Shown piece after piece: positions 2,454 to 59,649 of a stretch of 64,000 nt of DNA. Below the pieces are notes generated by a model that worked only from the letters and a program-made list of their open reading frames with translations, was not told the DNA's origin and did no database searches. Position numbers and translations under genes: made by a program. Numbering within the stretch: the first letter of the stretch is position 1; the number at the start of each line of letters is the position of its first letter. The stretch lies in contig CANJBX010000011.1 of the NCBI GenBank assembly GCA_947472885.1, forward strand, positions 1 to 64,000. Direction: 5' to 3'. This stretch comes from Hyphomicrobiaceae bacterium (lineage in GTDB: Bacteria; Pseudomonadota; Alphaproteobacteria; Rhizobiales; Xanthobacteraceae).

Positions 2454-3249
2454 TTACGGCGAAGGTGATTGCGGTTCTTCATCAAAAATGGCGACCGCTC
2501 GCGTCCAACCTGCCGAGCCGCCTTTAATTTTCACGGGAAAGCACGCTACCCGAAAGCCTGTTGGTGGCAGCTGATCGAGATTGTGAAGCTTCTCAATATG
2601 GCAATATGGTATTTCTCTGCCTGCGCGATGTCCTGACCAAATTACATTTGCATCGTGTGTCTCTAAAAAATTTCTTTTGCATCGCGTAAAACGGTGGGTC
2701 CCACGACCAGGCGTCAGTACCTGCCACCCTTATTCCTTGTTTGGTTAAGTGAAGTGTGGCGTCGCGGCCAAATCCACAGCCTGATCGCGTATAATCCTCG
2801 AAGCCGTAACGAGCGCCGGCAGCAGTGTTGAACAGAACAATATCGTTCGGTTTAAGCGTATGATTTGCGGCGAACAGCGCATCGTCGATATCGCGCGGGG
2901 TCGCCTCCGTGCCATGCGCCAGATGTTTCAGGTCCAGTTTCACTCCCGACCCATAAAACCATTCGAGCGGAATTTCGTCGATTGTGGCGGTAGGCATGCC
3001 GTTTTTCATTGTCGAGGAGTAGTGCCACGGCGCATCTACGTGAGTGCCGTTGTGTGTCGACAACTGAATATCTTCGGTCGCAAATGCCTCGCCTCCGATA
3101 TCCTCGGATTTGAGATTCTCGTACCGCGAGAGCCAAAGATGAGCGGTTTCCTTATGAGGAACGTAAGAAATCTTGAACCCATATCCCGGCGGATCTGACG
3201 GGACCCCATTTTCAAGCGGGACTGAAATATCGACGATTCTTGCGACCAT
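2454..3249 (-). pseudogene. cyclase / kynurenine formamidase-like hydrolase, one-base frameshift in an A6 run
   Basis: The N-terminal 190 residues are a clear cyclase-family (Pfam Cyclase) protein with the metal-site motif HNGTHVDAPWH near residue 68. The open frame leaves the family sequence at the homopolymer A6 (2665-2670) and stops at 2593. Removing one base from this run restores DANVIW, GHRAGREIPYC, EKLHNLDQLP and VKIKGGSAGWTRAVAIF and gives a natural stop at 2454-2456, for about 264 residues in all, the usual family length. The family hydrolyses cyclic or amide bonds such as N-formylkynurenine. The lesion is either a real inactivating mutation or a base-calling error. The gene is divergent from the Bug/FAH pair. 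Confidence 0.85.
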
Positions 3250-3369
3250 CTGTATGTCCTGGTGAGTAGCTGTACGTCTAAATCCGCACGCCTTGTTTTG
3301 TTGTCAACCCGTTCTGCCGTGCGTAGTCTCTGCCTAAAGAAGAACCAAAATCGCCACCTGGGGGAACCA

Positions 3370-4338
3370 GTGACAAGATTAAAGTATTCATTCGCGTTTG
3401 TATGCGTTTTCGCAATGTGGTCCACGGCTGCGTTCGCACAAAGCGTTTGGCCGGATCGAACAGTGCGTATCATTGTTCCATACTCGGCAGGTGGAACCCT
3501 CGACATCACCGTAAGGATGATGGCGCAGAAGCTCTCGGAAATGTGGGGGCAAACCGTAGTTGTTGAAAATCGCCCGGGTGCGGCGGGGCTAATTGGCGCA
3601 GATGCCGTCGTAAAATCTCCGCCCGACGGGAACTTGCTGGGCGGCGGCGCGTCTCCGATTCACACAACAAATAAGCTCATGATTGCAAAGTTGCCGTTTG
3701 ATCCTGACTTGGACGTGACTCCGATCATGCTGATTGCGAAGAACCCGTTATTCCTAGTCGTCCATCCATCAGTTCCGGCAACTGATCTGCGCAGTTTCAT
3801 TGAGTATGCGAAGGCCAATCCCGGCAAGCTAAGTTACGGAAGCGTGGGATCTGGTTCTCCCCAACACCTCGCGTTTGAGACGCTTAAACAAAGAAGTAAA
3901 ATTGATGTGCTGCACGTACCGTACAAGGGTGCTGCTGCAGCGTTGCAAGATCTGGCGTCCGGCAATATTCAAGCGATGATTGACACTACCGCCATGCAGC
4001 AAGTACGTGGCGGAAAGCTGAAAGCGTTGGCGGTGCTCGGCGACGAACGCTTTGTCGACGAGCCCGGTCTTCCATCGTTTGCAGAGCAAGGGTTTCCCGG
4101 AATGAATTTTTCGGGATGGTTCTCTTTGTTCGGTCCCAAAGATATGCCCGCCGCATTGGTTCAGAAGATCAACGCTGATGCGAACAAAGCCATTATGATG
4201 CCCGACATTAGGGCCAACTTGGCGGGAGTGATTGCTGTTCCTGTTGGGGGCTCTTCCGCAGACTTCAAACGTTTCATTGGGCAGCAAATGCAGATGCTCA
4301 CTGAAGCTGTGCGTGCGGCAAACATCAAGCCCGAGTAG
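3370..4338 (+). CDS. Bug-family periplasmic solute-binding protein (tripartite tricarboxylate transporter type)
   Basis: The 322-residue protein starts at a GTG with a strong GGGGGA ribosome site, giving a signal peptide cut after residue 23 (AAFA/Q). A longer open frame upstream does not look like export signal. The mature protein carries Bug hallmarks: VRIIVPYSAGGTLD, VVENRPGAAG, SPPDGNLL and HVPYKGAAAA. Such proteins bind carboxylates or aromatic acids for TctAB permeases, but no TctAB lies next to it. It is followed eight bases later by a fumarylacetoacetase-fold hydrolase, so the two are probably co-transcribed. Base composition is clearly more AT-rich than in the neighbouring oxidoreductase and core genes, which suggests separate acquisition. 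Confidence 0.9.
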   Translation: MTRLKYSFAFVCVFAMWSTAAFAQSVWPDRTVRIIVPYSAGGTLDITVRMMAQKLSEMWGQTVVVENRPGAAGLIGADAVVKSPPDGNLLGGGASPIHTTNKLMIAKLPFDPDLDVTPIMLIAKNPLFLVVHPSVPATDLRSFIEYAKANPGKLSYGSVGSGSPQHLAFETLKQRSKIDVLHVPYKGAAAALQDLASGNIQAMIDTTAMQQVRGGKLKALAVLGDERFVDEPGLPSFAEQGFPGMNFSGWFSLFGPKDMPAALVQKINADANKAIMMPDIRANLAGVIAVPVGGSSADFKRFIGQQMQMLTEAVRAANIKPE

Positions 4339-4345
4339 GTGCGCT

Positions 4346-5284
4346 GTGAAGTTGGCCACAATCGCTGATGGCGGTGAGAAAGTACTGTGTGTCGTTGATC
4401 AAGAAGCGGGCCGCTTGCTCAAGCTTGGATTGGCATCAACAACTCTCGAACCGGGAGCAGCGCACCCTTTTTTGAGCATGATTGATCTGTTGGATGGAGG
4501 AGATCGTGCCTTAGATACAGCACGATTACTCGTTGAGAAGTGGCCGGAAGTAGCCAGCCAAGCTTTGAGCGGGGCGAAGCTTCTATCCCCACTCCCAGTT
4601 CCGAGACAGATTCGAGATTGCCTAGTTTTCGAACAGCATCTTTTAAATGCCATGGCGCAATGGGAAAAAATGACGGGGAAGCCTTCGTCACCGATTTCTC
4701 CTGCATGGTACCAACGCCCAACGTACTACAAAGGGAACATCTACAGTGTGGTTGGTCCAGAGGAGGACGTCATCTGGCCACCTTATTCGGAACAGATGGA
4801 CTACGAGCTTGAACTTGCCTGCGTCGTGGGAAAGCCCAGCAAAGATGTTTCGGTCGAACAGGCAGCTGCTAATATATTCGGATACACGATTTTCAATGAT
4901 TTTTCGTCCCGAGATATGCAGGTTGTGGAGCGTCCGTTCGGAATGGGTCCGATGAAAAGTAAGGACTTTGATACGGGCAACGTGCTTGGCCCTTGGATCG
5001 TTACGGCAGACGAAATTGGCGACCCGCAAAAATTGAATATGGAAGTGCGCGTGAATGGTGAGAGGCGTGGCGGTGGAAATTCCGCTGACATGCATCACCG
5101 CTTTGATCAGATCCTTTCGTTTATGTCTGTGTCTGAAACTGTTCATCCCGGCACTGTGGTGGCGAGCGGTACAGTAGGGACGGGATGCGGGCTGGAGTCT
5201 GGCGAGTTTTTACGCCCTATGGACGTGGTGGAGCTCGAAATAGAGCGAATCGGTGTGCTGCGGAATCGCATCATTCGTCCGTGA
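4346..5284 (+). CDS. fumarylacetoacetate hydrolase (FAH)-family protein
   Basis: The 312-residue protein begins at a GTG (MKLATIADGG) seven bases after the Bug gene. It has an N-terminal small domain and a C-terminal FAH fold with metal ligands in DYELEL (E154, E156) and FNDFSSRD (D185/D190), followed by KSKDFDTGNVLGPW and the closing GTVASGT/GCGLE-like segment. Family members hydrolyse or decarboxylate beta-diketo acids and 2-keto-enoates late in aromatic breakdown, for example fumarylpyruvate or oxaloacetate. The preceding binding protein suggests import of its precursor, but this is inference. The gene shares the AT-rich composition of that partner. Confidence 0.88.
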   Translation: MKLATIADGGEKVLCVVDQEAGRLLKLGLASTTLEPGAAHPFLSMIDLLDGGDRALDTARLLVEKWPEVASQALSGAKLLSPLPVPRQIRDCLVFEQHLLNAMAQWEKMTGKPSSPISPAWYQRPTYYKGNIYSVVGPEEDVIWPPYSEQMDYELELACVVGKPSKDVSVEQAAANIFGYTIFNDFSSRDMQVVERPFGMGPMKSKDFDTGNVLGPWIVTADEIGDPQKLNMEVRVNGERRGGGNSADMHHRFDQILSFMSVSETVHPGTVVASGTVGTGCGLESGEFLRPMDVVELEIERIGVLRNRIIRP

Positions 5285-5756
5285 TGTTTTGGCGCAAATG
5301 TTTCATGCGTCCTAACAAACCGTCCAAGCGAGCGGTTGCGCCCAATTGTATTACTTGGTGCAAGATGATTGCTCTGTCACGACTGGTGCGACTGAGGTGA
5401 ATTTACGTCTTTTGCAATGAGTCATAAACTGGGAGCGGATCCGTTCGGTATGGGGCGTAATCGGGGAGGCCTGCGTTGTGCCGTTGTTGAAGCAGGCTCC
5501 GCCCCGCTCGACTTCCCATTCGCTTCCCGGCCTACGAACAATCATAAGCCGTTAGCCGTAAATCATTCTGAAAGTGTTGGTTTCAGGTACTCCAACATAT
5601 GATGGTTCAACAGGTGGTGCTGCAATCGATCAGGTGGCGTTGAAGATTGTTGAGCTCATGCTTGTCTAGAGAGAAGGGCCACCGGGACGCCGGCAGGCGG
5701 TCAAGGCATCCGGGAGAAGGTGTTTTATCGGAACGCTAGCCCAGAACTTCTGCGAG
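5285..5756. other. intergenic region, possible gene remnants
   Basis: No convincing complete gene is present. A short forward frame ending at the TAG near 5670 reads VLVSGTPTYDGSTGG and then AAIDQVALKIVELM, which looks protein-like but has no start and is preceded by a TAA. It may be the tail of a lost gene; I do not recognise the family. The region separates two convergent transcription units. No poly-T hairpin terminator was seen. Confidence 0.35.
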
Positions 5757-6737
5757 TTACTCCGGCTTGATACCCGCCGCCTCGATGGCGTTCTTCCAGC
5801 GCAAGCCTTCCTTCTTCAGGAAATCGCCGAACTGTTCCGGCGTCCAAGCCGGAATGTCGCCCGCGCCCTGCTTGGCATAGATATCCTTGAGATCCGGCGA
5901 AGCGATCGCCTTGATGATTTCGGCGTTGAGCTTTTGCACGACGGCCTTCGGCGTCGCGGCGGGGACGAAAATGCCCTGCCACGCCACGGCTTCATATTCG
6001 GGCACGCCGGCTTCGACCATGGTCGGCACGTCCGGCAAGGTCGACGCGCGCGTGTTTGAAGTGATCGCGAGCGCGCGCAACTGGCCTCCCTGCACGTAAG
6101 CGAGTGCCGTCGGAATGTCGTTATCGAGCAGATCGACGTGGTGACCGAGTGTTGCTGTGAGCGATGGCGCTGCGCCGGTGAATGGTACGGCGGTAATTTC
6201 GGTCTTGGTCAGCGCCTTGAATAGTTCGACGGCAAGATGCGGGAACGAGCCATGACCGCCATGGCCGTAGTTGAGCTGGCCCGGCTTTGCCTTGGCGAGC
6301 GCGATCAATTCCTTGATCGATTTCACCGGCACGTCGGGATGCACCAGAAACAGCGTCGGCACGATATTGATGATGGCGACCGGCGCAAGGTCCTTTGCCG
6401 CGTTATACGGCATCGCTTTCTGTAGACCGGGATTGATGCTGATGTTGGTGTTGCCGAGCAGGATCGTGTAGCCGTCCGCAGGCGCGCTGACCACGGCGCG
6501 CGTGCCGATCATGGTAGCGCCACCCGGACGATTCTCGACGACGACAGTCTGTCCCATGCTTTTGCCGATGCGGTCCGCGATGAGACGCGCCAGCGCATCG
6601 ACAAGTCCGCCGGCAGGGTAGGGCACCACGAATGTCATGGTGCGATTGGGATAATCCTGCGCGCGTGTGGGCGCGATAGCGATTAGCGTGAAGGCTGTCA
6701 GTGCGAAACCGGCAAGTGCGCGACGTAAAGTTTTCAT
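5757..6737 (-). CDS. Bug-family periplasmic solute-binding protein
   Basis: The 326-residue protein has a clear signal peptide ending near residue 26 (PTRA/Q), then the Bug motifs MTFVVPYPAGGLVDAL, VVENRPGGATMIG and SAPADGYTILLG and a C-terminal AAGIKPE. It is the last gene of a reverse-strand run: alpha/beta hydrolase, luciferase-like monooxygenase and this gene, with gaps of 32 and 16 bases, so it is probably co-transcribed. No TctA or TctB partner is adjacent. The ligand is unknown, but the enzyme neighbours suggest an organic or aromatic acid or ester. Confidence 0.92.
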   Translation of the reverse strand: MKTLRRALAGFALTAFTLIAIAPTRAQDYPNRTMTFVVPYPAGGLVDALARLIADRIGKSMGQTVVVENRPGGATMIGTRAVVSAPADGYTILLGNTNISINPGLQKAMPYNAAKDLAPVAIINIVPTLFLVHPDVPVKSIKELIALAKAKPGQLNYGHGGHGSFPHLAVELFKALTKTEITAVPFTGAAPSLTATLGHHVDLLDNDIPTALAYVQGGQLRALAITSNTRASTLPDVPTMVEAGVPEYEAVAWQGIFVPAATPKAVVQKLNAEIIKAIASPDLKDIYAKQGAGDIPAWTPEQFGDFLKKEGLRWKNAIEAAGIKPE

Positions 6738-6753
6738 TGTCGTTGTCCCAGGC

Positions 6754-7803
6754 TTATCGAAAATGCGGAATTACTTTTTCCGCCAGCGTGCGCATCACGC
6801 GGCGAACGACCTCGGTCGGCATGCCGCCGAAACCGAGGTTAAAGTCGATTTCGGCGAAACCTACCACGTCGCGCAGGTAGGTGATCTTGTCGATGGCGGC
6901 TTTCGCGTCGCCGAAGATCGAAAATCCGGCGTAGGTCGCATAATCGAATTCCGCGCCGAGCCCGCGGTCGCGCTGATATTGTTCCGAGCGATAGTGATCG
7001 TAGCTCGCGCCAACCGGCGGCTTGCTCACCGCGCCTGCGAACAAGCGCTGGAATTCCCGCGCGTATTTTTCTGCAAGTTCCTCGGCCTCTTTCTGGTTTT
7101 CCAGTACGCATGCCTGACGGCCAATTCGGGTGCGGTCGCCCGATACTGGTAGCCCGGCGCTGCGGCGCGCGGCCTTGAAGGCTTCAACCTGCTGGCGGCA
7201 GGTGTCGAGGTTGTCGGCAAAATTCTTGATGTAGCCGTAATCACCCTTGCCGATTTTTTCGAGCGAATGAAAGCTTACGCCTGCGATCCAGATCGGCGGA
7301 TGAGGCATTTGCCACGGCTTTGGATTGACGCTGATCGGCTCGGCATTCTTGTAGTAGCGCCCGTCATAGGTGAAAGCGTCAGGGCCCCAGGCTTTCTTGA
7401 CGATGTCGAGGTATTCGTCGAAGCGTTCGGCAGAATCTTCCATCGGCACGTTGTAGCCTTCGAACGCGCGGCGCTGATAGCCGCGGCCGATGCCCAGCGA
7501 CAGCCGACCTTCGCTCAGGACGTCGAGCAAAGCGGCGCGTTCGGCAAATTGAATCGGATGGTGCAGCGGCAGCACCGCCACCGCCGAGCAGAATTGCAAC
7601 TTCTTCGTCTTGGCGGCGACATAGGTAAAAAGCTGAAGCGAGTCGGGATTCACTACATACGGCGTGAAGTGCTGTTCCGCGGCGTGATAGCCGTCGAAGC
7701 CGAGTTCCTCGGCGTATTGACATATTTCGACAACGCGATGCAGCGCTTCGCTCGCGGAAACGCCCGGCGCAGCCGCAGTTGCAATGCTTATCCCGAAATA
7801 CAT
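6754..7803 (-). CDS. luciferase-like (LLM) flavin-dependent monooxygenase
   Basis: The 349-residue protein is a bacterial-luciferase fold oxidoreductase: the N-terminal strand MYFGISI, YHAAEQHF near residue 40, the flavin-binding VLPLHHPIQFAERAALLDVLSEGRLSLGIGRG region (residues about 78-109) and PPIWIAGVS. These enzymes use FMNH2 or F420H2 to insert oxygen beside carbonyl, amine or sulfonate groups. It sits between an alpha/beta hydrolase and a Bug binding protein on the same strand. The hydrolase-monooxygenase-transport set fits uptake and oxidative cleavage of one compound. The substrate cannot be assigned. Confidence 0.9.
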   Translation of the reverse strand: MYFGISIATAAAPGVSASEALHRVVEICQYAEELGFDGYHAAEQHFTPYVVNPDSLQLFTYVAAKTKKLQFCSAVAVLPLHHPIQFAERAALLDVLSEGRLSLGIGRGYQRRAFEGYNVPMEDSAERFDEYLDIVKKAWGPDAFTYDGRYYKNAEPISVNPKPWQMPHPPIWIAGVSFHSLEKIGKGDYGYIKNFADNLDTCRQQVEAFKAARRSAGLPVSGDRTRIGRQACVLENQKEAEELAEKYAREFQRLFAGAVSKPPVGASYDHYRSEQYQRDRGLGAEFDYATYAGFSIFGDAKAAIDKITYLRDVVGFAEIDFNLGFGGMPTEVVRRVMRTLAEKVIPHFR

Positions 7804-7835
7804 CGTTCCTCCCAGTTTGGTCTTTCCTTGTCGCG

Positions 7836-8744
7836 CTAGGCGGCAAGAAAACCAAGCATGAGTTTTGCAAGGCGCTCCCGCGTCCAGTGCAGATGAACGG
7901 CGTGGCCGGCGTTCGGAATGATCGCATAGAGTTTTTCGTCGGTCGCAAGCCCCGCGAAATACTGCGCAATCGCAGCCGATTGCCGTAATTGGAAATCCTG
8001 TGCGCCGTAAACGACCATGGCTGGCATCGTCAGCTTTGTTGGGTCAGAAAGTGGCATGCGGGTCTGAAAGTCTTTCACAACGCCGTTCGGCCCTCTGGAG
8101 TCCCAGCGATCACCCTCGGCAAGCCAGGATTCCAGCACCTTTGGTTCGGTGAGTTTCGGTTGCAGTGTTTGCACCGAAGACTCGCGCGAATTGTCGATGT
8201 AGTCGGTATCGATCGGAACTGCGAGCGGGCCTCCATCGGCGGGATTTAGCCGAGTAACGCGACCGCCGTAGAGCACCAACTTGCGCACGCGCGGGATATT
8301 AGCTTCAGCGTAAACGGCGGCCGTCGTTGCGCCCCACGACCAGCCGAGGAGGTCGAGTTGCGCGACGGCTCGCAGCTTGCAGATATATTCGACGGCGGCG
8401 CTGATGTCGGATGCTGCAATTTCAGTAGTCACCTTAAGGCCGGAAGGGTGATGATCCGAGCGGCCATAGCATTGAATGTCCAGCGAGAAGACATCGTAGC
8501 CTGACTGTGCCAGCGCATCCATAAACGAGAAGGTAAATTCGCCTTGTGACAGTGGCACCGGAAGATCGAACGCCACGCGTCCCGAGCGACGCGATCCATG
8601 AATCAGCAGTATGACTTTGCCAGAGCGGCAATACACTTCGGCGTCGGCATCTTGCCGCTTTTCCCAAAGATACAGCTTCAACGGCTGGCCGTCGTGAGCG
8701 GAGCTACTTTGAATCCGGTGCTCTAAACCGATGGGCTTCGGCAT
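7836..8744 (-). CDS. alpha/beta hydrolase
   Basis: The 302-residue protein shows the alpha/beta hydrolase fold: the oxyanion-side VILLIHGSRRSG near residues 44-55, the nucleophile elbow GWSWG with Ser136, the acid region VYGAQDFQLR, and a closing histidine in NAGHAVHLHW. It heads the reverse-strand run of hydrolase, LLM monooxygenase and Bug protein. No signal peptide is evident, so it is probably cytoplasmic. It may hydrolyse an ester or C-C bond in the same pathway as its neighbours, which is inference from position. Confidence 0.88.
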   Translation of the reverse strand: MPKPIGLEHRIQSSSAHDGQPLKLYLWEKRQDADAEVYCRSGKVILLIHGSRRSGRVAFDLPVPLSQGEFTFSFMDALAQSGYDVFSLDIQCYGRSDHHPSGLKVTTEIAASDISAAVEYICKLRAVAQLDLLGWSWGATTAAVYAEANIPRVRKLVLYGGRVTRLNPADGGPLAVPIDTDYIDNSRESSVQTLQPKLTEPKVLESWLAEGDRWDSRGPNGVVKDFQTRMPLSDPTKLTMPAMVVYGAQDFQLRQSAAIAQYFAGLATDEKLYAIIPNAGHAVHLHWTRERLAKLMLGFLAA

Positions 8745-9191
8745 TCATAACCGTCTTTCTCTCGTTTTCCCATGCGATCGAACACTTAGGCTCTACGTGG
8801 ATGCGTCCATCGAGACGGTCTGACGAGTTGGCTAACATACGACCTGCGATCGTCTATCTATCTAACTATACGGCATCGTTGTCAGTGTGTCCCGAAAACC
8901 GGGGTCAATTAAGCGCAGATATCGGAGCGCTCCAATTGATAGAAAATGCTGAATAATGCTTGGCCTGCCCCCAGTTCGGTTGACATCGGCATAAGCCAAT
9001 CCAGCTTGCTAATCGAACTCCATGCGACGCAAATAGCCCGATCGAGGTTCGTCGCTTCGGATTATAGAAGCGCTCGATGCAGTCGCCGTGTAAGATGGCC
9101 GGCAAGTGCCTCGGTGGAAACACCGGGGCATTTTGTCTAACGGCGCGTGTTCCCAACAGGGCATTTGACGTCAGCCGGAAGGCTAACAACC
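8745..9191. other. intergenic region containing the IS3 scrap
   Basis: Apart from the IS3-family remnant at about 8886-9085, nothing coding is recognisable. The part from 8745 to 8885 would hold the promoter of the reverse-strand hydrolase unit; I could not pick a -35/-10 pair with confidence. Confidence 0.4.
8886..9085 (-). mobile_element. IS3-family transposase C-terminal scrap with putative terminal repeat
   Basis: Read on the reverse strand, the segment near 9040-9080 gives DCIERFYNPKRR, the characteristic C-terminal signature of IS3-family OrfB integrases (usually YIERFYNPKRRHS), and, after a frame change, GYLRRMEFD, corresponding to GYLSPMEFE. Only the last 40 or so residues survive and at least one shift and one stop break them. 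About 100 bases beyond the end lies TGTCCCGAAAACCGGGG (from 8888), the kind of sequence found at IS3-family ends. No OrfA or catalytic DDE part is visible. It marks past insertion in this intergenic gap. Confidence 0.55.
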
Positions 9192-9344
9192 ATGGCGTCA
9201 GAGAATGAAAATCTTCGCGACAAGATACGAAATCTAGGGTTGGCGGCCGCAACTAAAATCCCAGACTACGATAAGGACCCAGTCGTCATTCGGCGGGTCG
9301 GAGAAATAGTCGGAAAAGCTATGACAAAGGAAGCGAAGAGATAG
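9192..9344 (+). CDS. small hypothetical protein (50 aa)
   Basis: A 50-codon frame starts at an ATG with a GGAAGG ribosome site eight bases upstream. The protein is charged (ENENLRDKIRN, KDPVVIRRVGEIVGKAMTKEAKR) and looks helical, without a signal peptide or a domain that I recognise. It stands alone between an IS remnant and a non-coding stretch. It could be a small regulator or chance coding; confidence rests only on the ribosome site and the non-random amino-acid pattern. Confidence 0.35.
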   Translation: MASENENLRDKIRNLGLAAATKIPDYDKDPVVIRRVGEIVGKAMTKEAKR

Positions 9345-9889
9345 CGCGCGCGACCTAGCCGTGGATCGGTGCGGTGCAAACGGCGCAGGTGGCCTATTAA
9401 TATCCTTAATCCAGCCTGGCAGTTCCCCGGCGCTACTTACGATGCGGATTTTTGCTGCAGGGAATGCCGGTCCGCAGCCGAGGAGGAACAAGGCCGCGGG
9501 GGAAGGCACATCAACAGCCAGATCATGTGCGAATAGGGGCGGTGTGGGTCACTCTAATTTCATCCCGATTTGTTCCCCATCGTGAACCGGCGAGATTGAG
9601 CAACGTAACCGCTCAAAGTGCAGGCGTCGTATTTTCCGGTGTGTAGTTGCATCCCCCGGCAACCTCCGAGGCGCAGCTCATGATTTGAGCCGGGGCAGTA
9701 TCGGCGCGGATCAAGGCAGCAATCGGCGCTGAGTGTGAAGGATCGGATGGAACCTAACAGCTAAAAGCGTCCGGCGAATTTTGAACATGCAGGCTGAAAT
9801 ACCTAGCCCCGGTGATGCCGGTAGGCCTGTAAAAGAAACTTAGGCGATGATAGACGGAGGGGTAATCCACTCCACTCAAAGAATGCAAA
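9345..9889. other. non-coding stretch with a structured segment upstream of the LLM gene
   Basis: No open frame here looks like a protein. The segment from about 9650 to 9880 is purine-rich with many short self-complementary pieces, including CCTA-gcc-CCGG (from about 9801), loop TGATG and CCGG-TAGG, an eight-pair stem with a three-base bulge. It ends just before the ATG at 9890. It could be a structured leader, a small RNA or a fragment of a ribozyme-type mobile intron. I cannot decide by reading. Confidence 0.4.
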
Positions 9890-10978
9890 ATGCCGCCGAG
9901 AACTCAGCCGCGATTTGGAGTCTGGACGCCCGTGTACGGTACCTGGGCATCTCTTCGGCATCCTGATGACCCCGTCGACGCGTCGTGGGAGCGAAGCAAG
10001 CGCCTAATCCTGGAAGCCGAAGAACTAGGATATGAGTCGACGCTTGTCGCGCAGCACACCATCAATCCTTTTGGCGATAATTTCGCTCAACTGGAGGCTG
10101 TGACAGCGACGGCTGCGCTAGGCGCACTCACGAAACGTGTCGAGCTGATCGTTGCGATCAAGCCCGCGCTTGTCCACCCTGTGATTTTCGCCAAGCAGGC
10201 TCTTCAGATTGAAGAGATTAGCGGCGGCAGAATGTCGATCAATCTCGTGAATGGCTGGTTCAAGCCTGAGATCGAGCGCGCGGGCATACCGTTGCTCGAG
10301 CACGATGAACGTTATGTCTACGGACAGGAGTGGATTGATCTGGTGGAGCGTTTGCTCACGGGCGAGAGAGTCTCGCATTCGGGCAAATACTTCCACGTCG
10401 ATGAGTATACCTTGCGGCCTTTGTCGAGGTTCAGGGCTCGTCCGATTATCTATATCGGAGGCGAGTCCGAGCCGGCCCGCAATCTAGCGGTCAAGAGCGC
10501 AGACGTTTGGTTTCTCAATGCGCAGCCATGTCAGCAAGTCACCGAGATGATTGCCGCGGTTGCAGCCCGGGAGAGAACCAGGCCGCCGCTTAAATATGCG
10601 ATGCCGGCATTCGTGATCACTCGAGAGACTGATGAGGAAGCGCAAGTGGCGCTCGAGGCCGCTTGGGATCTTGCAAATCGAGATGAAGTAGAAAAACAGG
10701 CGTTACGGGCAGGCATTGATAAGAACGTAGTTATGATGGAGAGCGCCCAACGCAGACCACACATCGGAACCAATGGTGGAACTTCAGCAGGCCTGGTCGG
10801 TAGCTACGAGACTGTCGCGAAGCGAATATTGGACTTCACGGAAGCCGGTGTGGAAACGTTCATGCTGCAGTTCCAGCCGTTGGAAGCGGAGATGCGGCGC
10901 TTCGCCAAGGAGGTCATGCCGCGTGTTCGTTCCTTGTGCGAAGGCCGGTCGACTTTGGCAACTCATCATGGGCTCTGA
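9890..10978 (+). CDS. luciferase-like flavin monooxygenase, alkanesulfonate monooxygenase (SsuD)-like
   Basis: The 362-residue protein belongs to the luciferase-like fold and is closest in pattern to the SsuD/nitrilotriacetate group: FGVWTPVYG at the N-terminus, STLVAQHT near residue 45, the flavin-site region AIKPALVHPVIFAKQALQIEEISGGRMSINLVNGW (about residues 85-119) and a central LEHDERY. Such enzymes work with a separate flavin reductase, which is not seen here. A branched-chain-type binding protein gene follows 77 bases later on the same strand and may supply the substrate. The ribosome site before 9890 is weak, so the start is less certain than the frame. Confidence 0.88.
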   Translation: MPPRTQPRFGVWTPVYGTWASLRHPDDPVDASWERSKRLILEAEELGYESTLVAQHTINPFGDNFAQLEAVTATAALGALTKRVELIVAIKPALVHPVIFAKQALQIEEISGGRMSINLVNGWFKPEIERAGIPLLEHDERYVYGQEWIDLVERLLTGERVSHSGKYFHVDEYTLRPLSRFRARPIIYIGGESEPARNLAVKSADVWFLNAQPCQQVTEMIAAVAARERTRPPLKYAMPAFVITRETDEEAQVALEAAWDLANRDEVEKQALRAGIDKNVVMMESAQRRPHIGTNGGTSAGLVGSYETVAKRILDFTEAGVETFMLQFQPLEAEMRRFAKEVMPRVRSLCEGRSTLATHHGL

Positions 10979-11055
10979 ATGGCCGTCTCACGTACTTCCG
11001 AGATTGTTGAGTTGGCGCATTCTGTGTTATTGAGGGTTTTGCAAGGAGAACATGG

Positions 11056-12225
11056 ATGAAGACCCAGTCCGCGAGCGCTCTTGCTTTCATCGCCCTGCTG
11101 AGTGTGATGCCTGCGCGAGCGGCTGAGCCTGTCAAGATTGGCATGATTACCACGCTTTCCGGCCCTGGCGGCTACCTGGGCGAAGACGTACGCGACGGGT
11201 TTCAACTGGCGATCGATCAGGAGCAGGGAAAGCTCGGCGGCGTATCGGTTCGTGTCATCGTCGAGGATGACGGGCTAAAACCCGGAAACGCCAAGCAGAT
11301 TGCTAAAAAACTTCTCGACTCCGAGCAGGTGAAGATTTTTACGGGCATTATTTTCACCAACGTTGCGGTTGCCGTTGTGCCCGACATTCTCGATGGCTCC
11401 GCATTTTACATTGGTGCGAATGCGGCTCCTTCCAACTTTGCCGGCAAGGAGTGCGACAAGAATTATTTCGTCGTGAACTGGCAGAACGATGCGCTCCATG
11501 AGGCTGCCGGGCAGACTGCTACCGAACTAAGTTTTCAGAACGCGATCGCGGTCGTGCCAAATTATCAAGGCGGCCTAGACGCTTTGGCTGGGTTCAAGCG
11601 TCGCTTCAAGGGCCAGGTCATCAATGAGCTCTTCACCAAGCTTGATCAGACCGACTTCGCTGGCGAGATGGCTCAGATCCGGGCGGCGAAGCCTAACGTC
11701 GTGTACCAATTCCAGCCAGGTGGGCTCGGCGTTGCCTTCTTGAAGCAGTATGCGCAGGCGGGACTCAAGGAAACCATCCCGATGGTTGTCGCTGCGCCGT
11801 CTATGGATTACCGCACAATGACGGTAGTCGGCGAAGCAGCAACCGGGGTCACACTCGCGACTTTTTGGAATACCGACTTCGATAATCCCCAAAGCAAGCG
11901 CTTCGTCGCTGATTTCGAAGCGAAGTATCATCGGTTGCCGACCTTTTACGCAGCCCAAGGGTATGACGCCGCTCGCCTGACGGCCAGCGCTTTAAAGGCT
12001 GTCGACGGCGATATGGGTAAACCTGACGCTTTCCGCGCCGCAATGCGTAAAGCCAATTTTGATTCCGTTCGCGGCACTTTTCACTTCGGCCCCAATCAGC
12101 ATCCGGTCCAGGATTGGTATGCCGCGCGTGTCGAGACAGGAAGCGACGGTAAACTGGCCATCCGAACGCAAAAAAAGATTCTTGAAGATTACGGGGATAG
12201 TTATGCCGCAGCCTGCAAGATGTAA
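11056..12225 (+). CDS. ABC transporter substrate-binding protein, branched-chain amino acid (LivJ/LivK) type
   Basis: The 389-residue protein has a signal peptide ending at ARA/AEP near residue 22 and then the periplasmic type-I binding fold: VKIGMITTLSGPGGYLGEDVRDGFQLAIDQ, the VVPNYQGGLD hinge region and QGYDAARLTASAL near the end. An AGGAG-like ribosome site precedes the ATG. Many alphaproteobacterial members bind aromatic acids rather than amino acids. No permease or ATPase gene is directly attached; the nearest ABC set lies at 20.5-24.0 kb on the other strand, so this may be an additional receptor for it. The palindrome at 12383-12412 lies downstream. Confidence 0.9.
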   Translation: MKTQSASALAFIALLSVMPARAAEPVKIGMITTLSGPGGYLGEDVRDGFQLAIDQEQGKLGGVSVRVIVEDDGLKPGNAKQIAKKLLDSEQVKIFTGIIFTNVAVAVVPDILDGSAFYIGANAAPSNFAGKECDKNYFVVNWQNDALHEAAGQTATELSFQNAIAVVPNYQGGLDALAGFKRRFKGQVINELFTKLDQTDFAGEMAQIRAAKPNVVYQFQPGGLGVAFLKQYAQAGLKETIPMVVAAPSMDYRTMTVVGEAATGVTLATFWNTDFDNPQSKRFVADFEAKYHRLPTFYAAQGYDAARLTASALKAVDGDMGKPDAFRAAMRKANFDSVRGTFHFGPNQHPVQDWYAARVETGSDGKLAIRTQKKILEDYGDSYAAACKM

Positions 12226-53109: not shown

Positions 53110-54072
53110 ATGGCCGTCGTGCTCGACCTCGTAAATAACCCGCGCCCGCGCCACCCGGAAAAGGCGCATCGCCCGGACACGCCGCTTGCCAAGAAGCCGG
53201 ACTGGATTCGCGTCAAGGCGCCGGTATCCGCCGGCTACAACGCCACGCGCGAGATCATGCGCGTCAACGGCCTCAAGACCGTCTGCGAAGAGGCCGGCTG
53301 CCCCAACATCGGCGAGTGCTGGGAGAAGAAGCATGCCACCTTCCTCATCATGGGCGACACCTGCACGCGCGCCTGCGCGTTCTGCAATGTGAAAACCGGC
53401 CGCCCCGAAGCACTCGATCCCAACGAACCGCACCATGTCGCCGAAGCCACCGCCAAGCTCGGCCTCGCGCATATCGTCGTCACCTCGGTTGACCGCGACG
53501 ACCTCGACGACGGCGGCGCGCGGCACTTCGCCGAGGTCATTCTGGCAATCCGCGACAAGTGCCCGGCGACGACGATTGAAGTTTTGACGCCGGATTTCCT
53601 GCGCAAGGAAAATGCAAACGCGCTCGAAACCTTGGTGCGTGCCAGGCCGGATGTGTTCAACCACAACCTCGAAACCGTGCCGTCGCTGTACCTGACCGTG
53701 CGGCCCGGCGCGCGCTATTTCCATTCCATCCGGCTGCTGCAGCAGGTCAAGGAAATCGACCCGGCGATGTTCACCAAGTCCGGCATCATGGCGGGTCTCG
53801 GTGAAACCCGGAACGAAGTGCTGCAGGTGATGGACGACCTGCGCTCGGCCAACGTCGATTTCCTCACCATCGGGCAATACCTGCAACCGACCCGCAAGCA
53901 CCACGAGGTCAAGAGCTTCATCACCCCGGAAGAGTTCAAGGCCTACGAGACGGTCGCCTATGCCAAGGGATTCCTGATGGTGTCGTCGTCGCCGCTGACG
54001 CGCTCGTCGCATCACGCCGGCGAGGATTTTGCGCGCATGAAGGCCGCGCGCGGCGCGGCGCAGGGCAAGTGA
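53110..54072 (+). CDS. lipA: lipoyl synthase
   Basis: The 320-residue radical-SAM enzyme has the N-terminal cluster motif [12 protein letters not shown], the radical-SAM motif [25 protein letters not shown] and the C-terminal [11 protein letters not shown]. It adds sulfur to octanoyl groups to form lipoate, which the pyruvate dehydrogenase genes upstream need. A palindromic repeat follows at 54080. Confidence 0.98.
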
Positions 54073-54079
54073 TCTTGTT

Positions 54080-54163
54080 GTCATTGCGAGCGAAGCGAAG
54101 CAATCCCGGTCAGGTGCGCACCCCTGACCGGGATTGCTTCGTCGCTGTGCTCCTCGCAATGAC
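54080..54163. repeat. complete GCAATGACG palindromic repeat (REP/MITE-like)
   Basis: The left arm (54080-54114, GTCATTGCGAGCGAAGCG and on) and right arm (54123-54163, ending CTCGCAATGAC) are inverted copies around TGCGCACC, with a few extra bases in the right arm. The same sequence type is common in Bradyrhizobium and Rhodopseudomonas relatives. A half copy lies at 26165-26202. It ends 12 bases before the coq10-like start. Confidence 0.85.
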
Positions 54164-54175
54164 GGTGAGATAGCC

Positions 54176-54634
54176 GTGCCCAGCTTCACCACCAAACGGT
54201 CCGTCCGCCATTCGGCCAGCGACATGTTCGATCTCGTCGCCGATGTCGATCAGTATCCGCAATTCGTGCCGCTGTGTTCGGCGCTGAAAGTGCGCAAGCG
54301 CACGGCGGGCGAGGGCGGCACCGAAGTCCTGATCGCCGACATGACGGTCGCCTACAAGTTCGTGCGCGAGACCTTCACCAGCCGCGTCACGCTCGACAGG
54401 CCGGACCTGAAAATCCTCGTCACCTACCTCGACGGCCCGTTCAGCAAAATGGAAAACCGCTGGACCTTCAAGCCCACAGGCGAGAAGTCCTGCGAGGTCG
54501 AGTTCGCCATCGACTACGAGTTCAAGAGCCGCACGCTTGGTATGCTGATGGGCGCGATGTTCGAGACCGCGTTCCGGCGCTTTTCGGCGGCCTTCGAGGC
54601 GCGGGCCGACAAGGTTTATGGCCGCACGGCCTGA
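54176..54634 (+). CDS. Coq10/RatA-type START-domain ubiquinone-binding protein
   Basis: The 152-residue protein has the START-like fold pattern: MPSFTTKRSVRHSASDMFDLVADVDQYPQFVPLC, a YKFVRETFTSRVTL strand pair and FKSRTLGMLMGAMFETAFRRFSAAFEARA at the C-terminal helix. It probably carries or positions ubiquinone for respiration. The GTG at 54176 is chosen because upstream codons lie in the palindromic repeat. A diverged copy of its last 110 bases lies at 55510-55615. Confidence 0.9.
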   Translation: MPSFTTKRSVRHSASDMFDLVADVDQYPQFVPLCSALKVRKRTAGEGGTEVLIADMTVAYKFVRETFTSRVTLDRPDLKILVTYLDGPFSKMENRWTFKPTGEKSCEVEFAIDYEFKSRTLGMLMGAMFETAFRRFSAAFEARADKVYGRTA

Positions 54635-54701
54635 AGTCCTCCACAGTCACAATATCTCAACGTGCGGCGGTGCTAGGAACTGCAAAGCCGCCGAAGGTTC
54701 G

Positions 54702-55385
54702 TTACGGGCAGGTCTGACCTGGCACCATCATGCCCATCACGACGGCCTGGCAAGGAGTTCCGGCTGGGAGATGCGGCGGAGGAAACGGACCGACTCTCGT
54801 GCCCTGAAAAGTGCAGCAGAAAGGTGCGGCCGCGCCAGGACCGGGGCCGGGTGAACCTCCATACACAGACTCGGCAAACGCCGGTGGCCGGTTGGCGCAG
54901 GCCAGGGTCATGTTCCAGAAAACCGCGCCGCTTCCGAATAGATTTGCGTACACGTTCTGGCTCGCGTGAAATTGTCCCACGGCAGCTTCCTGAGGCGGAG
55001 AAATCTTTCCGTCGCTGCGCATTTTTCGAAGGCCTTCGCAGTTTGCGCCAAGCTCACTTTGCGGCTGCGAAGTGAATCTGGTTCCAAACCGTGCATGCGC
55101 GCATTCATGATAAAACAGATATTCAACGGCGATTGGTAACTGTTGAGCTATCGGCAGCACCTTGCTCGGATCAAACGTGATGTAGGGGAGTCCGTTTGGA
55201 CCAAACTGCGTATATCCCGCAAAGCCGTTCGCGAAACCACTTTGTTCGGGCACAACGTAGGGGCCGTTCGCCGTTTGCACCGTGCAGTTAACGTGATCGC
55301 CGTTTGACATCACGAACGCATTTGCGGATGGCACACTGAAAAAGAAGATCAGCGAAATAAACGCGGTCAAGCGGATCGAATTCAT
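54702..55385 (-). CDS. secreted protein with HExxH (HECAH) motif, unknown function
   Basis: The 227-residue protein has a signal peptide cut near residue 23 (ANA/F) and several cysteines, a FYHECAHARFG segment near residue 92 that fits the HExxH zinc-peptidase motif, and a downstream ELGANCEGLRKM that could supply the third ligand. The C-terminal part is Pro/Gly/Cys-rich (GGSPGPGPGAAAPFCC). No named family comes to mind. It is transcribed against its neighbours, and its base use is less GC-rich than theirs. It lies between two copies of the coq10 3' end and looks inserted. Confidence 0.75.
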   Translation of the reverse strand: MNSIRLTAFISLIFFFSVPSANAFVMSNGDHVNCTVQTANGPYVVPEQSGFANGFAGYTQFGPNGLPYITFDPSKVLPIAQQLPIAVEYLFYHECAHARFGTRFTSQPQSELGANCEGLRKMRSDGKISPPQEAAVGQFHASQNVYANLFGSGAVFWNMTLACANRPPAFAESVYGGSPGPGPGAAAPFCCTFQGTRVGPFPPPHLPAGTPCQAVVMGMMVPGQTCP

Positions 55386-55464
55386 CGATTACTCCCCCGA
55401 ATGAACCTCTTGAGTGCTTTAGGTAATATACCACAATAACACGTTCAGGTTGTATTTCGGCAAG

Positions 55465-55483
55465 GCCCATCGGGCGGTTTTTT
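55465..55483 (+). terminator. short intrinsic-terminator-like hairpin
   Basis: GCCC and GGGC pair around ATC and are followed by GG and a T6 run. No forward gene lies directly before it except coq10, 830 bases upstream. Confidence 0.4.
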
Positions 55484-55509
55484 CTAACCAGTCATGGCGC
55501 AGCTATCCG

Positions 55510-55615
55510 GGAGCCGTACCCTTGCCATGCTGATGAACGTAGTGTTCGAGACCGCATTCCGGCGGCCTTCGAGAGACCCGCGCCGACAAGGTTTATGGCC
55601 GCACGGCTTGAGGTT
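55510..55615 (+). repeat. diverged copy of the coq10 3' end
   Basis: The segment matches 54527-54635, from GAGCCG through ATGCTGATG, TTCGAGACCGC and GACAAGGTTTATGGCCGCAC to the stop (GGCTTGAGG versus GGCCTGAAG), with scattered substitutions, a loss of about ten bases and a small insertion. It has no start of its own. Confidence 0.85.
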
Positions 55616-55682
55616 TTGCCCCGTAACCGCGGCTTAATACTGTCCCCCTAGGCTGCCCAAAACCTGACATTCCGGGCCGGCC

Positions 55683-57932
55683 ATGACTGCCATCGACCCT
55701 TCCGCGTTGAACAGTCCGATGTCGTCGACGCTACGGCTTGCGCCGGCGCTATATGCCGTCACTTTGTTTGGCTCCGCGCTGCTGCTGTTCCTGCTGCAAC
55801 CGATGCTCGCCCGCATGGTGCTGCCGCGGCTTGGCGGTTCGCCGTCGGTGTGGTGGGTCGCCATGGTGTTCTTCCAGACCGCGCTGCTGGCCGGTTATGG
55901 CTACGCACATATTCTCAACCGGGTGTTGTCCCCGCCGCACGCGGCCCTCGTGCATTTCGCCGTGCTGGCGTGCGCGGCCATCACGCTCCCCATCGGTATC
56001 GCTACAGGCTACGACGCGCCGCCTTCATCGGGCCTTGGTCCGTGGCTGTTCGGGCTGTTCGCCATTTCCATCGGGTTGCCGTTCATGGCATTGTCGGTGA
56101 GCGCGCCGATGCTGCAGCGCTGGTTCGTCGCCAGCGGCCATCCGCAGGCAGGTAATCCCTACGTGCTTTATGCCGCCTCGAACATCGGCTCGTTCGTGGC
56201 GCTGATGGCTTATCCGTTCGTGATCGAGCCGCTGCTGCCGCTGCGCGGTCAGGCCATGCTGTGGTCGTTCGGCTTTGCCGCGCTTGCCATGTTCATCGCC
56301 TTCGCCGGTTTGGTGGTGGCGCGCGAAGCCGCGCCCAAATGCAGCGAAGCTGTTGCCACCTCCGAAACACCCGCGTTCAGCGACCGCTTGTTGTGGATCG
56401 TGCTGTCGGGAATCCCGTCCGGCCTCGTCATCGCGGTGACAGCGTTCATCTCGACCGACATCGCTGCCGCGCCGTTCATGTGGGTCATCCCGCTCGCGCT
56501 GTTCCTGTTGACCTTCGTCGTCGTGTTCCGCGACCGGCCGATGTTCGATCACGCGCTGCTGCTGCGCCTTGCGCCGCTCGCCGCCGCGCCGGTTGCCGTC
56601 ACCATGCTCGGCATCCTCAAGCCGCACTGGCTGGTGGCGATGTCGTTCAACCTGCTGCTGTTCGTGCTGCTGACGCTGATCTGTCACGGCGAACTCTATC
56701 GCCGCAGGCCAGCGCCGGCGCGGCTGACGGAGTTTTACTTCTTCTCCTCGCTTGGCGGCGTCATCGGCGGCGCATTCGCGGGCCTGCTCGCGCCGTACAT
56801 CTTTAACAACACCTACGAGTATCCGGTGCTGATCGTCGCAGCATTGCTCGTTGCGCCCGGACTTTATGCTGCCGGAGCAGGGGCGGCGTTGCGGCAGGCA
56901 TGGCCCGCACTTGCCGCCATCGCCGCAGTCCTGTTTGCGCGCTTTGTCCTCGACATTCGCCTTGCGGAATCCGCGGCGCTCGTCTTCAAGCTCGCGGCAG
57001 TTGCCATCGTCATCGCCATCTTTGTGTGGCGTTCAAAGCCCGCTGTCGCGGCGGCGCTGACGGTGCTGGCATTTGTGCTGACCGGCGCATGGACGCCCGG
57101 CCTCAATCGTATCGAGATCGCGCGCAGCTTCTTTGGCGTGTATCAGGTGATCGACACCGTGGACGGCGGCTACCGTCTGCTGTTCCACGGCACCACGATC
57201 CATGGCGCAACGAAATTGCGCGACAAGAATGGCATTGCCATCACCGGACGACCTGAGCCTACGGCCTATTATTATTTCGGCGGGCCGATCGCGGAAGGCA
57301 TTGCCATGGCCCGCGAGGCGCACGGCATCAACAATGTCGCTATCGTTGGGCTCGGCGCCGGCAGTCTTGCATGCCATCGCAAGGACAACGAACGCTGGAC
57401 GTTCTACGAAATTGATCCCGAAGTCGTGCGGATCGCGCAGGACGCCAGCCTGTTCCGTTTTATGTCGGAATGTGCGCCCAAGGCGCCGGTTGTGATCGGC
57501 GATGCGCGGCTGACCATCACGCGGGCTGTAACGCCCTACGACCTGATCGTGCTTGATGCATTCTCGTCGGATTCCATTCCGGTGCACTTGCTGACGCGCG
57601 AGGCTTTGCAAATCTATCTGGCGAAGCTCGCGCCGGGCGGCCAGATCGTCGCGCACATTTCAAACCGCCATCTCGATCTTGCGCCAACCCTTGCGGCAGC
57701 GGCGAATGCGGCAGGCTTGACCACCTACCTAAAGGAAAAGGCCGTCGCGGATTTCATCGGCTCCGGGTACACGTCGAGTTCTTCCGTCATGCTGTTGACG
57801 CGCGATCCCGCGGACCTCGGCGAGCGGCCCACGAAGCAGGGTTGGCGAAAAATCGAAGCGCCGGTTGACGTTGCGTGGACCGACGACTTCTCGAATATCC
57901 TTGGCGCGATGTTGCGCCAGGCAATGAGATAA
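55683..57932 (+). CDS. membrane protein fused to spermidine synthase-like domain
   Basis: The 749-residue protein has about a dozen hydrophobic segments in residues 15-470 (FGSALLLFLLQPMLARMVLPRLGGSPSVWWVAMVFFQ) and a C-terminal Rossmann domain of the spermidine-synthase type (VAIVGLGAGSLACHRKDNERWTFYEIDPEVVRIAQD, then YDLIVLDAFSSDSIPVHLLTREALQ). The fusion is widespread in proteobacteria, but its function is not established. Key polyamine-site residues could not be confirmed, so polyamine synthesis is not claimed. Confidence 0.9.
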   Translation: MTAIDPSALNSPMSSTLRLAPALYAVTLFGSALLLFLLQPMLARMVLPRLGGSPSVWWVAMVFFQTALLAGYGYAHILNRVLSPPHAALVHFAVLACAAITLPIGIATGYDAPPSSGLGPWLFGLFAISIGLPFMALSVSAPMLQRWFVASGHPQAGNPYVLYAASNIGSFVALMAYPFVIEPLLPLRGQAMLWSFGFAALAMFIAFAGLVVAREAAPKCSEAVATSETPAFSDRLLWIVLSGIPSGLVIAVTAFISTDIAAAPFMWVIPLALFLLTFVVVFRDRPMFDHALLLRLAPLAAAPVAVTMLGILKPHWLVAMSFNLLLFVLLTLICHGELYRRRPAPARLTEFYFFSSLGGVIGGAFAGLLAPYIFNNTYEYPVLIVAALLVAPGLYAAGAGAALRQAWPALAAIAAVLFARFVLDIRLAESAALVFKLAAVAIVIAIFVWRSKPAVAAALTVLAFVLTGAWTPGLNRIEIARSFFGVYQVIDTVDGGYRLLFHGTTIHGATKLRDKNGIAITGRPEPTAYYYFGGPIAEGIAMAREAHGINNVAIVGLGAGSLACHRKDNERWTFYEIDPEVVRIAQDASLFRFMSECAPKAPVVIGDARLTITRAVTPYDLIVLDAFSSDSIPVHLLTREALQIYLAKLAPGGQIVAHISNRHLDLAPTLAAAANAAGLTTYLKEKAVADFIGSGYTSSSSVMLLTRDPADLGERPTKQGWRKIEAPVDVAWTDDFSNILGAMLRQAMR

Positions 57933-58388
57933 CTACGGCAGCTTCCTGAGCGTTTCCCAACGCTGGTCGGCGCGCTGGATAAGCTGCGTGGCCTTGCGCG
58001 TAAACAGCTTAACGTCGCGCGGAAAGCGAAACACGTAGAGCTTCTCGTCGATGATGGTCCAGTACCTCGGATCGGCCTCGATGCGTTCGCCGCCCGAAAC
58101 CGTAAATGCGCAGTAGCCGTTGTAGCGCGGCGCGTAATGCGCGGGGTCGGAGTTGAACATGTCGCGATGCGCGGCGCTTGTGAACAGGTAGGTCGTGCCG
58201 TCAACCGTGACCGTGAAGTCCTGCGAACCCTTCTTCGGTTCGTCGTTCTCGAAATAGGAAATCGGGTCATAGCCCTGCAGCGCGATGCGCGCCGGCTTCG
58301 GAGCCGTCTGGGCCATCGCCGGCAATCCATCGAGGGCGAGGACGGCGGAGGCAAGCGCGGCGGTCAGCAGGGTGCGTTTGGTGATCAC
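57933..58388 (-). CDS. secreted YHS-domain protein
   Basis: The 151-residue protein starts at a GTG (MITKRTLLTAALASAVLA), giving a signal peptide cut near residue 26 (AMA/Q). The YHS-like domain has ALQGYDPISYFENDEPKKGSQDFTVTVDGTTYLFTSAAHRDMFNSDPAHYAPRYNGYCAF. YHS domains are thought to bind metal or act in copper or redox handling. A longer N-terminus is open but would lack an export signal. It converges with the membrane/spermidine-synthase gene; the stops abut. Confidence 0.85.
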   Translation of the reverse strand: MITKRTLLTAALASAVLALDGLPAMAQTAPKPARIALQGYDPISYFENDEPKKGSQDFTVTVDGTTYLFTSAAHRDMFNSDPAHYAPRYNGYCAFTVSGGERIEADPRYWTIIDEKLYVFRFPRDVKLFTRKATQLIQRADQRWETLRKLP

Positions 58389-58529
58389 GGCCGAGGTCTT
58401 TCGGAAATGCGATGAAACTGCTTCAGCGAAGAACGGCGGTATATTACAGTCACATGACAGTCTTGCGACATTTACCGCTGTCCGCAATCCGCGCGCTTTC
58501 AAATGCTTTCCGACATGCGGCAATCGGCT

Positions 58530-59649
58530 TTATGCCGCGGTCTGTTTGATCGTCGGGACACGGATGGTGAGGTTGGCGCGCAGGCCCGCTGGCTGGTAGT
58601 CGAGTTCGACTTCGCCTCACGATTGCTGGTTGATCAGCCGGTCGAGCAGCAGGGAGCCAAAGCCCTTGTGCTGCGGCGCTGACACCGGCGGACCGCCAAT
58701 CTCCACCCAATGCAGCACCAGTTCCGTCCCGGTATCGAATTCCTCGATCTTCCATGAAATCTCGATATTGCCGTTCGGTACGGACAGCGCGCCGTACTTC
58801 GAGGCATTCGTCATCAGTTCGTGGATGCACATGCCAAGCGACACCGCGATATCCGAGGGCAACGATACATTCGGCCCGTCGAGCGCGATGCGGCTTTCCT
58901 GGTTGTGCAGCGCAAGTTCGGTCGTCAGCAGGTCGTTGAGCGAAGTCGAGACCCATTGCTGGTCGATCAGCAACGTGTGGGTATTCGCAAGCGACATGAT
59001 GCGCGCGCGGATGCTGTCGCCGAACTGCGCGAGGCTTCCTGCCGTCTTCAGGCTGAGAAAGATGATCGACTGCACGACCGCGAGCGTATTCTTGACCCGG
59101 TGATGCAATTCGCTGATCAGCAACTTTTGCTGCCGTTCCGCCTCGCGCCGCTGGACAATCTCGCCGCGCAGCGCGATCTGGTCCATCACCAGCGAAGCCA
59201 GATCGCTCAATGTGGCAATGTCGTCAGCCGACCAGTCACGCGGCTTGCCGTCGATGGCGCACAGCGAACCGATCACGCTTCCGTTCGGCAATTTCAGCGG
59301 CACGCCAAGATAGGCAACGACGGCGAGGTCACGCACCGCAAGGTTGTCACTGACGCGGGTATCGGAGCGCGCATCGGTGACAACGAGCGTCTCCTGCGTG
59401 ATGACGACGTGCTGGCAGAATGAGTGCGACAACGGTGTTTCGCGGACCTTGTCAAAGGGACTCGGCAGGCCAAGCTGGCTTTTAAAAAAATTGCCGGTCG
59501 CTATCGACAAGCGAAACCAGCGCCACCGGCGCACCGATGACCTTGCCGACCAGCCGGGTGATGCGGTCAAAAGCTTCTTCGGGGGCGCTGTCGAGCAAGC
59601 CTGTGGCCCGCAAGGACGACAGGCGCTCGGGATCTGTGGTGGTGGTCAT
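58530..59649 (-). pseudogene. GAF-HWE-type histidine kinase broken by a frameshift and an in-frame stop
   Basis: The gene starts MTTTTDPERLSSLRATGLLDSAPEEAFDRITRLV (59649) and encodes a GAF domain, then the phosphoacceptor box ELHHRVKNTLAVVQSI and an ATP-binding region with HELMTNASKYGAL. Two lesions break it: one extra base in an A7 run (59484-59490) shifts frame right after DRQFF, and a TGA at 58617-58619 replaces a conserved glycine before the last 29 codons, which still read GEVELDYQPAGL to a natural TAA at 58530. Repaired, it would be about 372 residues. Such kinases sense redox or light-like signals and feed stress responses. Confidence 0.88.

Follow-up and report, generated by a model that had tools for sequence, protein, structure and literature searches.

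The 3' end of a coq10/RatA-like gene is present twice on this contig of a Hyphomicrobiaceae bacterium, and the two copies enclose a single gene, here called HECAH after its motif. DNA was very probably inserted at this point, and the native end of coq10 was displaced by it. The further reading that the locus is an old insertion scar of ~985 bp at the coq10 3' end, made by site-specific recombination of the att type, is tentative, and we hold it with somewhat less than even confidence. The features discussed below are collected in Table 1; the term "window" refers to the whole analyzed stretch of 64,000 nucleotides.

Table 1. Features of the coq10 locus and its surroundings (positions in the window).
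Feature	Position	Strand	Basis or remark
lipA, native left-hand neighbor	53110..54072	+	Relative loci
coq10/RatA-like gene, complete, 152 aa, GTG start	54176..54634	+	Pfam Polyketide_cyc, E 1e-33, profile 1-126 of 126
Repeat copy 1, functional coq10 3' end	54526..54634	+	Weak similarity continues to ~54650
26-bp identical block, possible crossover core (weak, p 0.035)	54605..54630	+	Equals 55582-55607 in copy 2
Unique cargo segment, 860 bases	54651..55510	.	GC about 55%
HECAH gene, 227 aa	54702..55385	-	Hydrophobic N terminus (by eye), HExxH and later invariant E, Cys-containing C-terminal extension
Repeat copy 2, decayed coq10 3' end, two frameshifting indels; probable displaced native end	55511..55611	+	
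Fused membrane / spermidine-synthase-like gene, probable native right-hand neighbor of coq10	55683..57932	+	NCBIfam NF037959, 47.5 bits (cut-off 40)

The preliminary description had claimed a diverged second copy of the last ~110 bases of coq10, and this was borne out: the last 109 bases of the gene recur in decayed form, and the full alignment extends over 54526-54650 and 55511-55627. The local alignment score of 62 compares with 15 at most when the sequence was shuffled 500 times in blocks of 20 bases; blastn aligned the copies with 76.3% identity over 114 columns (E 2.3e-19, 86.9 bits). The 5' edge of the repeat is sharp and lies within coq10 (just 4 of the 15 preceding bases are equal), while beyond the stop codon 9 of 16 bases are equal and the similarity then fades. 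Copy 2 ends in a TGA at 55609-55611 and contains two indels that shift the frame, a 2-bp insertion and a 10-bp deletion that is flanked on both sides by CGGCG (by eye). The upstream gene is complete, i.e., its open reading frame has a full-length Polyketide_cyc match; direct repeats of the gene end stand at both borders of the cargo, as in integrative elements that use the 3' end of a gene. It should be noted that the identical block contains none of the differences between the copies (0/26, compared to 13/78 before it), which is weakly unusual by Fisher's test and too weak as evidence for a crossover core.

To describe the decay, we compared both copies with 43 distinct sequences of relatives (duplicate loci were counted once, and L028 was omitted, as the motif was not found by the script). 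Before the tail, the copies differ at 13 of 78 aligned positions. Judged by the majority among these relatives, copy 2 has the derived letter at 9 of the 13, and four of these copy-2 changes affect first or second codon positions; there, 35 to 43 of the 43 relatives match copy 1. At the remaining four, the derived letter seems to be that of copy 1, the functional copy; at one of these sites, neither copy has the letter that is commonest among relatives. Because the derived changes concentrate in copy 2, some of them at conserved sites, we take copy 2, on its sequence, to be a decaying fragment. The final 30 bases of the two copies are equal at 29 positions, compared to 25 of 30 for the best of 44 relatives. 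The coq10 tail varies among relatives, and among the 50 loci examined the ending GRTA was found in this locus only; the tail pattern was not found in the genome_contigs and viral_contigs collections. The two copies most likely separated after the lineage had left the sampled genera.

Gene order in relatives suggests which copy may be the native one. Downstream of coq10, in 44 distinct relative loci (of 49 loci, duplicates counted once), cinA was found within 150 bp in 23 cases, the spermidine-synthase-like gene in three, and neither in 18, some of which have little sequence. The three loci in which coq10 directly precedes the spermidine-synthase-like gene (L062, L063 and L064) all belong to other genera. 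Their coq10 stop codons lie about 39, 23 and 72 bp, respectively, before residue 1 of that gene (extrapolated distances), and in the window the TGA of copy 2 lies 71 bp before its ATG at 55683. The window order is coq10, HECAH, copy 2, the spermidine-synthase-like gene, two minus-strand genes (57933-58523 and 58617-59570) and cinA; if HECAH and one repeat are removed, coq10 is followed by the spermidine-synthase-like gene as in L062-L064. Since both spacing and order match these loci, copy 2 appears to occupy the position of the native coq10 end and is probably that end, displaced. Direct adjacency of the two genes, which had been suggested as a check, was thus recovered in 3/44 relative loci but not in the others, and an empty site was seen only in other genera, the genus itself being represented in the comparison by this genome alone. 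On the left-hand side, a lipA match was present in the same locus as coq10 in 27/29 and 20/20 relative loci in two sets, with adjacency that was not always direct.

Sequence comparison of the flanks gave no further resolution. When the flanks of the copies were compared with the spacers behind coq10 in L062, L063 and L064, the best p value was 0.065 (copy 2 and L064), and the other five ranged from 0.23 to 0.45. When all flanks were scanned, each copy accounted for five of the ten lowest p values; the native copy was not told apart. A foreign origin of the 3' part of coq10 was not apparent either: identity in the 3' and 5' parts differed on average by 0.048 for this gene and by 0.047 for all pairs. 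We considered L049, the closest relative in the 3' part, as a sign of such an origin (identity of 0.892 in the 3' part and 0.761 in the 5' part) and rejected it as unconvincing, as a gap of this size is reached by 3.7% of all pairs.

Other cargo at this site was a further check suggested earlier, and the interval behind coq10 does vary. In L049, L055, L056 and L060, the interval between coq10 and cinA holds differing genes, with no integrases obvious by eye. These genes are ordinary-looking (by eye) and without coq10 repeats, and the variable content was therefore rejected as support for an att site.

Several observations concern coq10 and its surroundings. The match of its product to the NCBIfam RatA toxin model (85 bits) is far under the 258-bit cut-off, and in terms of such matches the toxin name should not be transferred to this gene. 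A 19-bp perfect inverted repeat (54096-54114 and 54123-54141) lies between lipA and coq10; it overlaps a stretch from ~54130 to 54165 with similar sequence many times in the same and related genomes, and 54096-54165 is apparently a dispersed palindromic element. There is no tRNA in the window, and Rfam, promoter and terminator scans found nothing.

According to our reading of the list of open reading frames, HECAH is the sole gene-like frame between the copies. The preliminary description of the cargo as one secreted gene on the opposite strand with different base use held in part. The frame is alone and on the minus strand, and its GC3 of 0.60 is below that of the neighbors (coq10 frame, with its start taken at 54134, 0.83; lipA, 0.85; downstream gene, 0.78). 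However, GC is just as low or lower in 8.4% of the 870-bp stretches of the window, and frames at 2593-5284 have a GC3 of 0.54-0.57; because such low-GC stretches occur elsewhere in the window, the base use of HECAH is odd for its neighborhood and not for the window. The region 2593-12225 as a whole has mostly lower GC3 (0.54-0.74) and contains putative cyclase, TctC receptor, FAA hydrolase, luciferase-like and periplasmic binding protein genes.

The HECAH protein had no match in Pfam, NCBIfam or PHROGs at the limits used, and it has one copy in its own genome. Relatives are rare: at E <= 0.001, matches were found in 2 other of 391 family genomes and in 4 other of 397 order genomes (one of them over 41 residues only), and none in the plasmids, phages, viral contigs and genome contigs searched. 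In six aligned sequences, HECAH and E111 are invariant, and cysteines at three positions outside the motif (C34, C116 and C163) are shared; for L032 we used a frame with a start codon that is probably too far upstream, and L072 (in G620), which has no frame with HExxH, was left out. An HExxH motif with a later conserved acidic residue is the arrangement of HExxH metallopeptidases, and the product is putatively a secreted zinc-metallopeptidase-like protein in which E111 would bind the metal. Single-sequence fold prediction was poor and unusable (mean pLDDT 40). The Cys-containing C-terminal extension (54705-54878, minus strand) is absent from the aligned relatives and has short weak matches, i.e., 46% over 41 aa in G620 and two of 60 other genomes at E of about 0.008-0.009; it may represent a small mobile domain. 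None of the frames around five HECAH relatives starts like an integrase (by eye).

We propose the following sequence of events. The incoming DNA would have carried the HECAH gene together with a coq10 3' end of its own (~110-120 bases), and would have recombined inside the 3' end of the resident coq10. The incoming end would have made the gene complete again, and the native end, shifted to a place in front of the downstream gene, would be decaying there. The most likely agent would be a tyrosine recombinase acting on an att-type site and either supplied in trans or since lost, which would leave a CIME-like relic. The earlier remark that no integrase is left agrees with domain searches: of the nine matches to the tyrosine recombinase domain PF00589 in the genome, none is on the 77-kb contig (C11), and the single resolvase match (PF00239) is on another contig (C18). 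It should be noted that a one-gene cargo is too small for an autonomous element, which counts against the proposed events. The claim of site-specific integration at coq10 stands in its first part, an insertion with a displaced 3' end in accord with the order and spacing in L062-L064, but not in its mechanism, for which neither an integrase domain on the contig nor a second occupied site was found; site-specific recombination is a possible mechanism that we favor with reserve.

Other occupied sites were sought by querying genomes with the last 45 residues of the coq10 product, at an E limit of 0.01. In the family, 379 of 391 genomes matched, with two matches each in G000, G140, G289 and G295; the pairs in G140, G289 and G295 are on different contigs. 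In the class, 191 of 289 genomes matched, with two matches in G000 only. Thus, two coq10 ends on one contig were found in no other genome among those searched. As a control, the query recovered the decayed copy of its own locus at E 0.0044, close to the limit; similarly decayed scars could easily be missed, more so in the class, and an intact second coq10 in the family should be detectable. We also searched each of 49 relative loci with its own coq10 end and found nothing convincing downstream, where many of the loci spanned ~1.5 kb or less; the same search of the locus studied here gave E 5e-21, and forward matches downstream of coq10 in relatives had at most 23 bases and E of 0.01 or more. 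The two strongest extra matches in relatives were rejected: one in L051 (76% over 50 bases, E 6e-5) lies 5.8 kb upstream of coq10, and one in L011 (37 bases, E 8e-4) is inverted and on coq10 itself. The sample shows no visible integration hotspot at coq10 but is still compatible with one. In a thin literature search, from which we claim no absence, the word coq10 did not occur among the matches listed.

A plausible, although less favored, alternative is that no dedicated recombinase took part, i.e., that a circle with a coq10 3' fragment was integrated by a single crossover, or that such a fragment was captured during repair of a filled-in staggered break. The end product would be the same, a long direct repeat around cargo with an intact upstream coq10, and this alternative would account for two negative findings, namely that the contig has no integrase and that no other occupied sites were detected. 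Selection for a working coq10 would, in addition, favor a break past the stop codon. Conversely, this alternative states no cause for a crossover or break at exactly this spot, and the layout fits a known att scar, icd/e14/icdC. It is improbable that coq10, whole or in its 3' part, was duplicated in tandem, that one copy decayed and that HECAH arrived separately within it. The lineage-specific tail common to both copies and the decay of copy 2 are what such a history would produce; however, it needs two events, and neither blastx nor blastn found coq10-like sequence above noise in 54635-54705 or 55386-55515. Tandem coq10 genes in relatives had been named as the observation that would overturn the preliminary description: none were found on one contig in the 391 family and 289 class genomes, where an intact second gene should show, but the sensitivity to decayed copies is limited. 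Chance similarity or an assembly artefact has a negligible probability: the genome is a 128-contig assembly, but the copies are too unlike for a collapsed or doubled repeat, and chance is excluded by the shuffles and the E value (62 vs. 15; 2e-19).

If insertion by site-specific recombination is confirmed, coq10 would join the protein genes used as integration targets, possibly as a new target, and the locus would show cleanly how an insert can shrink to one gene and still leave its scar at the gene end. For now, the locus is one decayed example of a known process. A broader hypothesis, which we consider unlikely, is that the 3' ends of coq10/ratA-like genes are an unrecognized attachment site for small integrase-less cassettes mobilized in trans, here with a secreted putative metallopeptidase as cargo.

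A known layout in E. coli K-12 served as a control; in its annotation, e14 lies between icd and the pseudogene icdC. The alignment of icd and icdC begins abruptly 165 bases short of the icd end, and the similarity continues past the stop (188 of 216 letters equal). The coq10 locus has the same layout: in both systems the element is inside a housekeeping protein gene, at its 3' end, the gene is complete, a gene-end fragment stands at the far border, and the repeat has mismatches, a sharp 5' edge and similarity past the stop. The coq10 repeat has about two thirds of the length of the icd repeat and is more decayed, and its displaced end is frameshifted, unlike that of icd; e14 is annotated with ~15 kb, intE and xisE, whereas the coq10 locus has ~1 kb, one gene and no integrase. 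CIMEs are described as elements that lost their integration and transfer genes and kept attL and attR (PMC5704250). The coq10 locus resembles them as cargo between two repeats, and differs in that no related complete element was found and the repeats are candidate att sites. SGI1-type islands carry an integrase. Their target is the 3' end of trmE, and they are mobilized by plasmids (PMC8409611). They differ from the coq10 locus in the target gene, in having an integrase and in plasmid mobilization; what they have in common with it is a target at the 3' end of a protein gene. More generally, many att sites are reported to lie within protein-coding genes, which islands often rebuild (PMC12884075).
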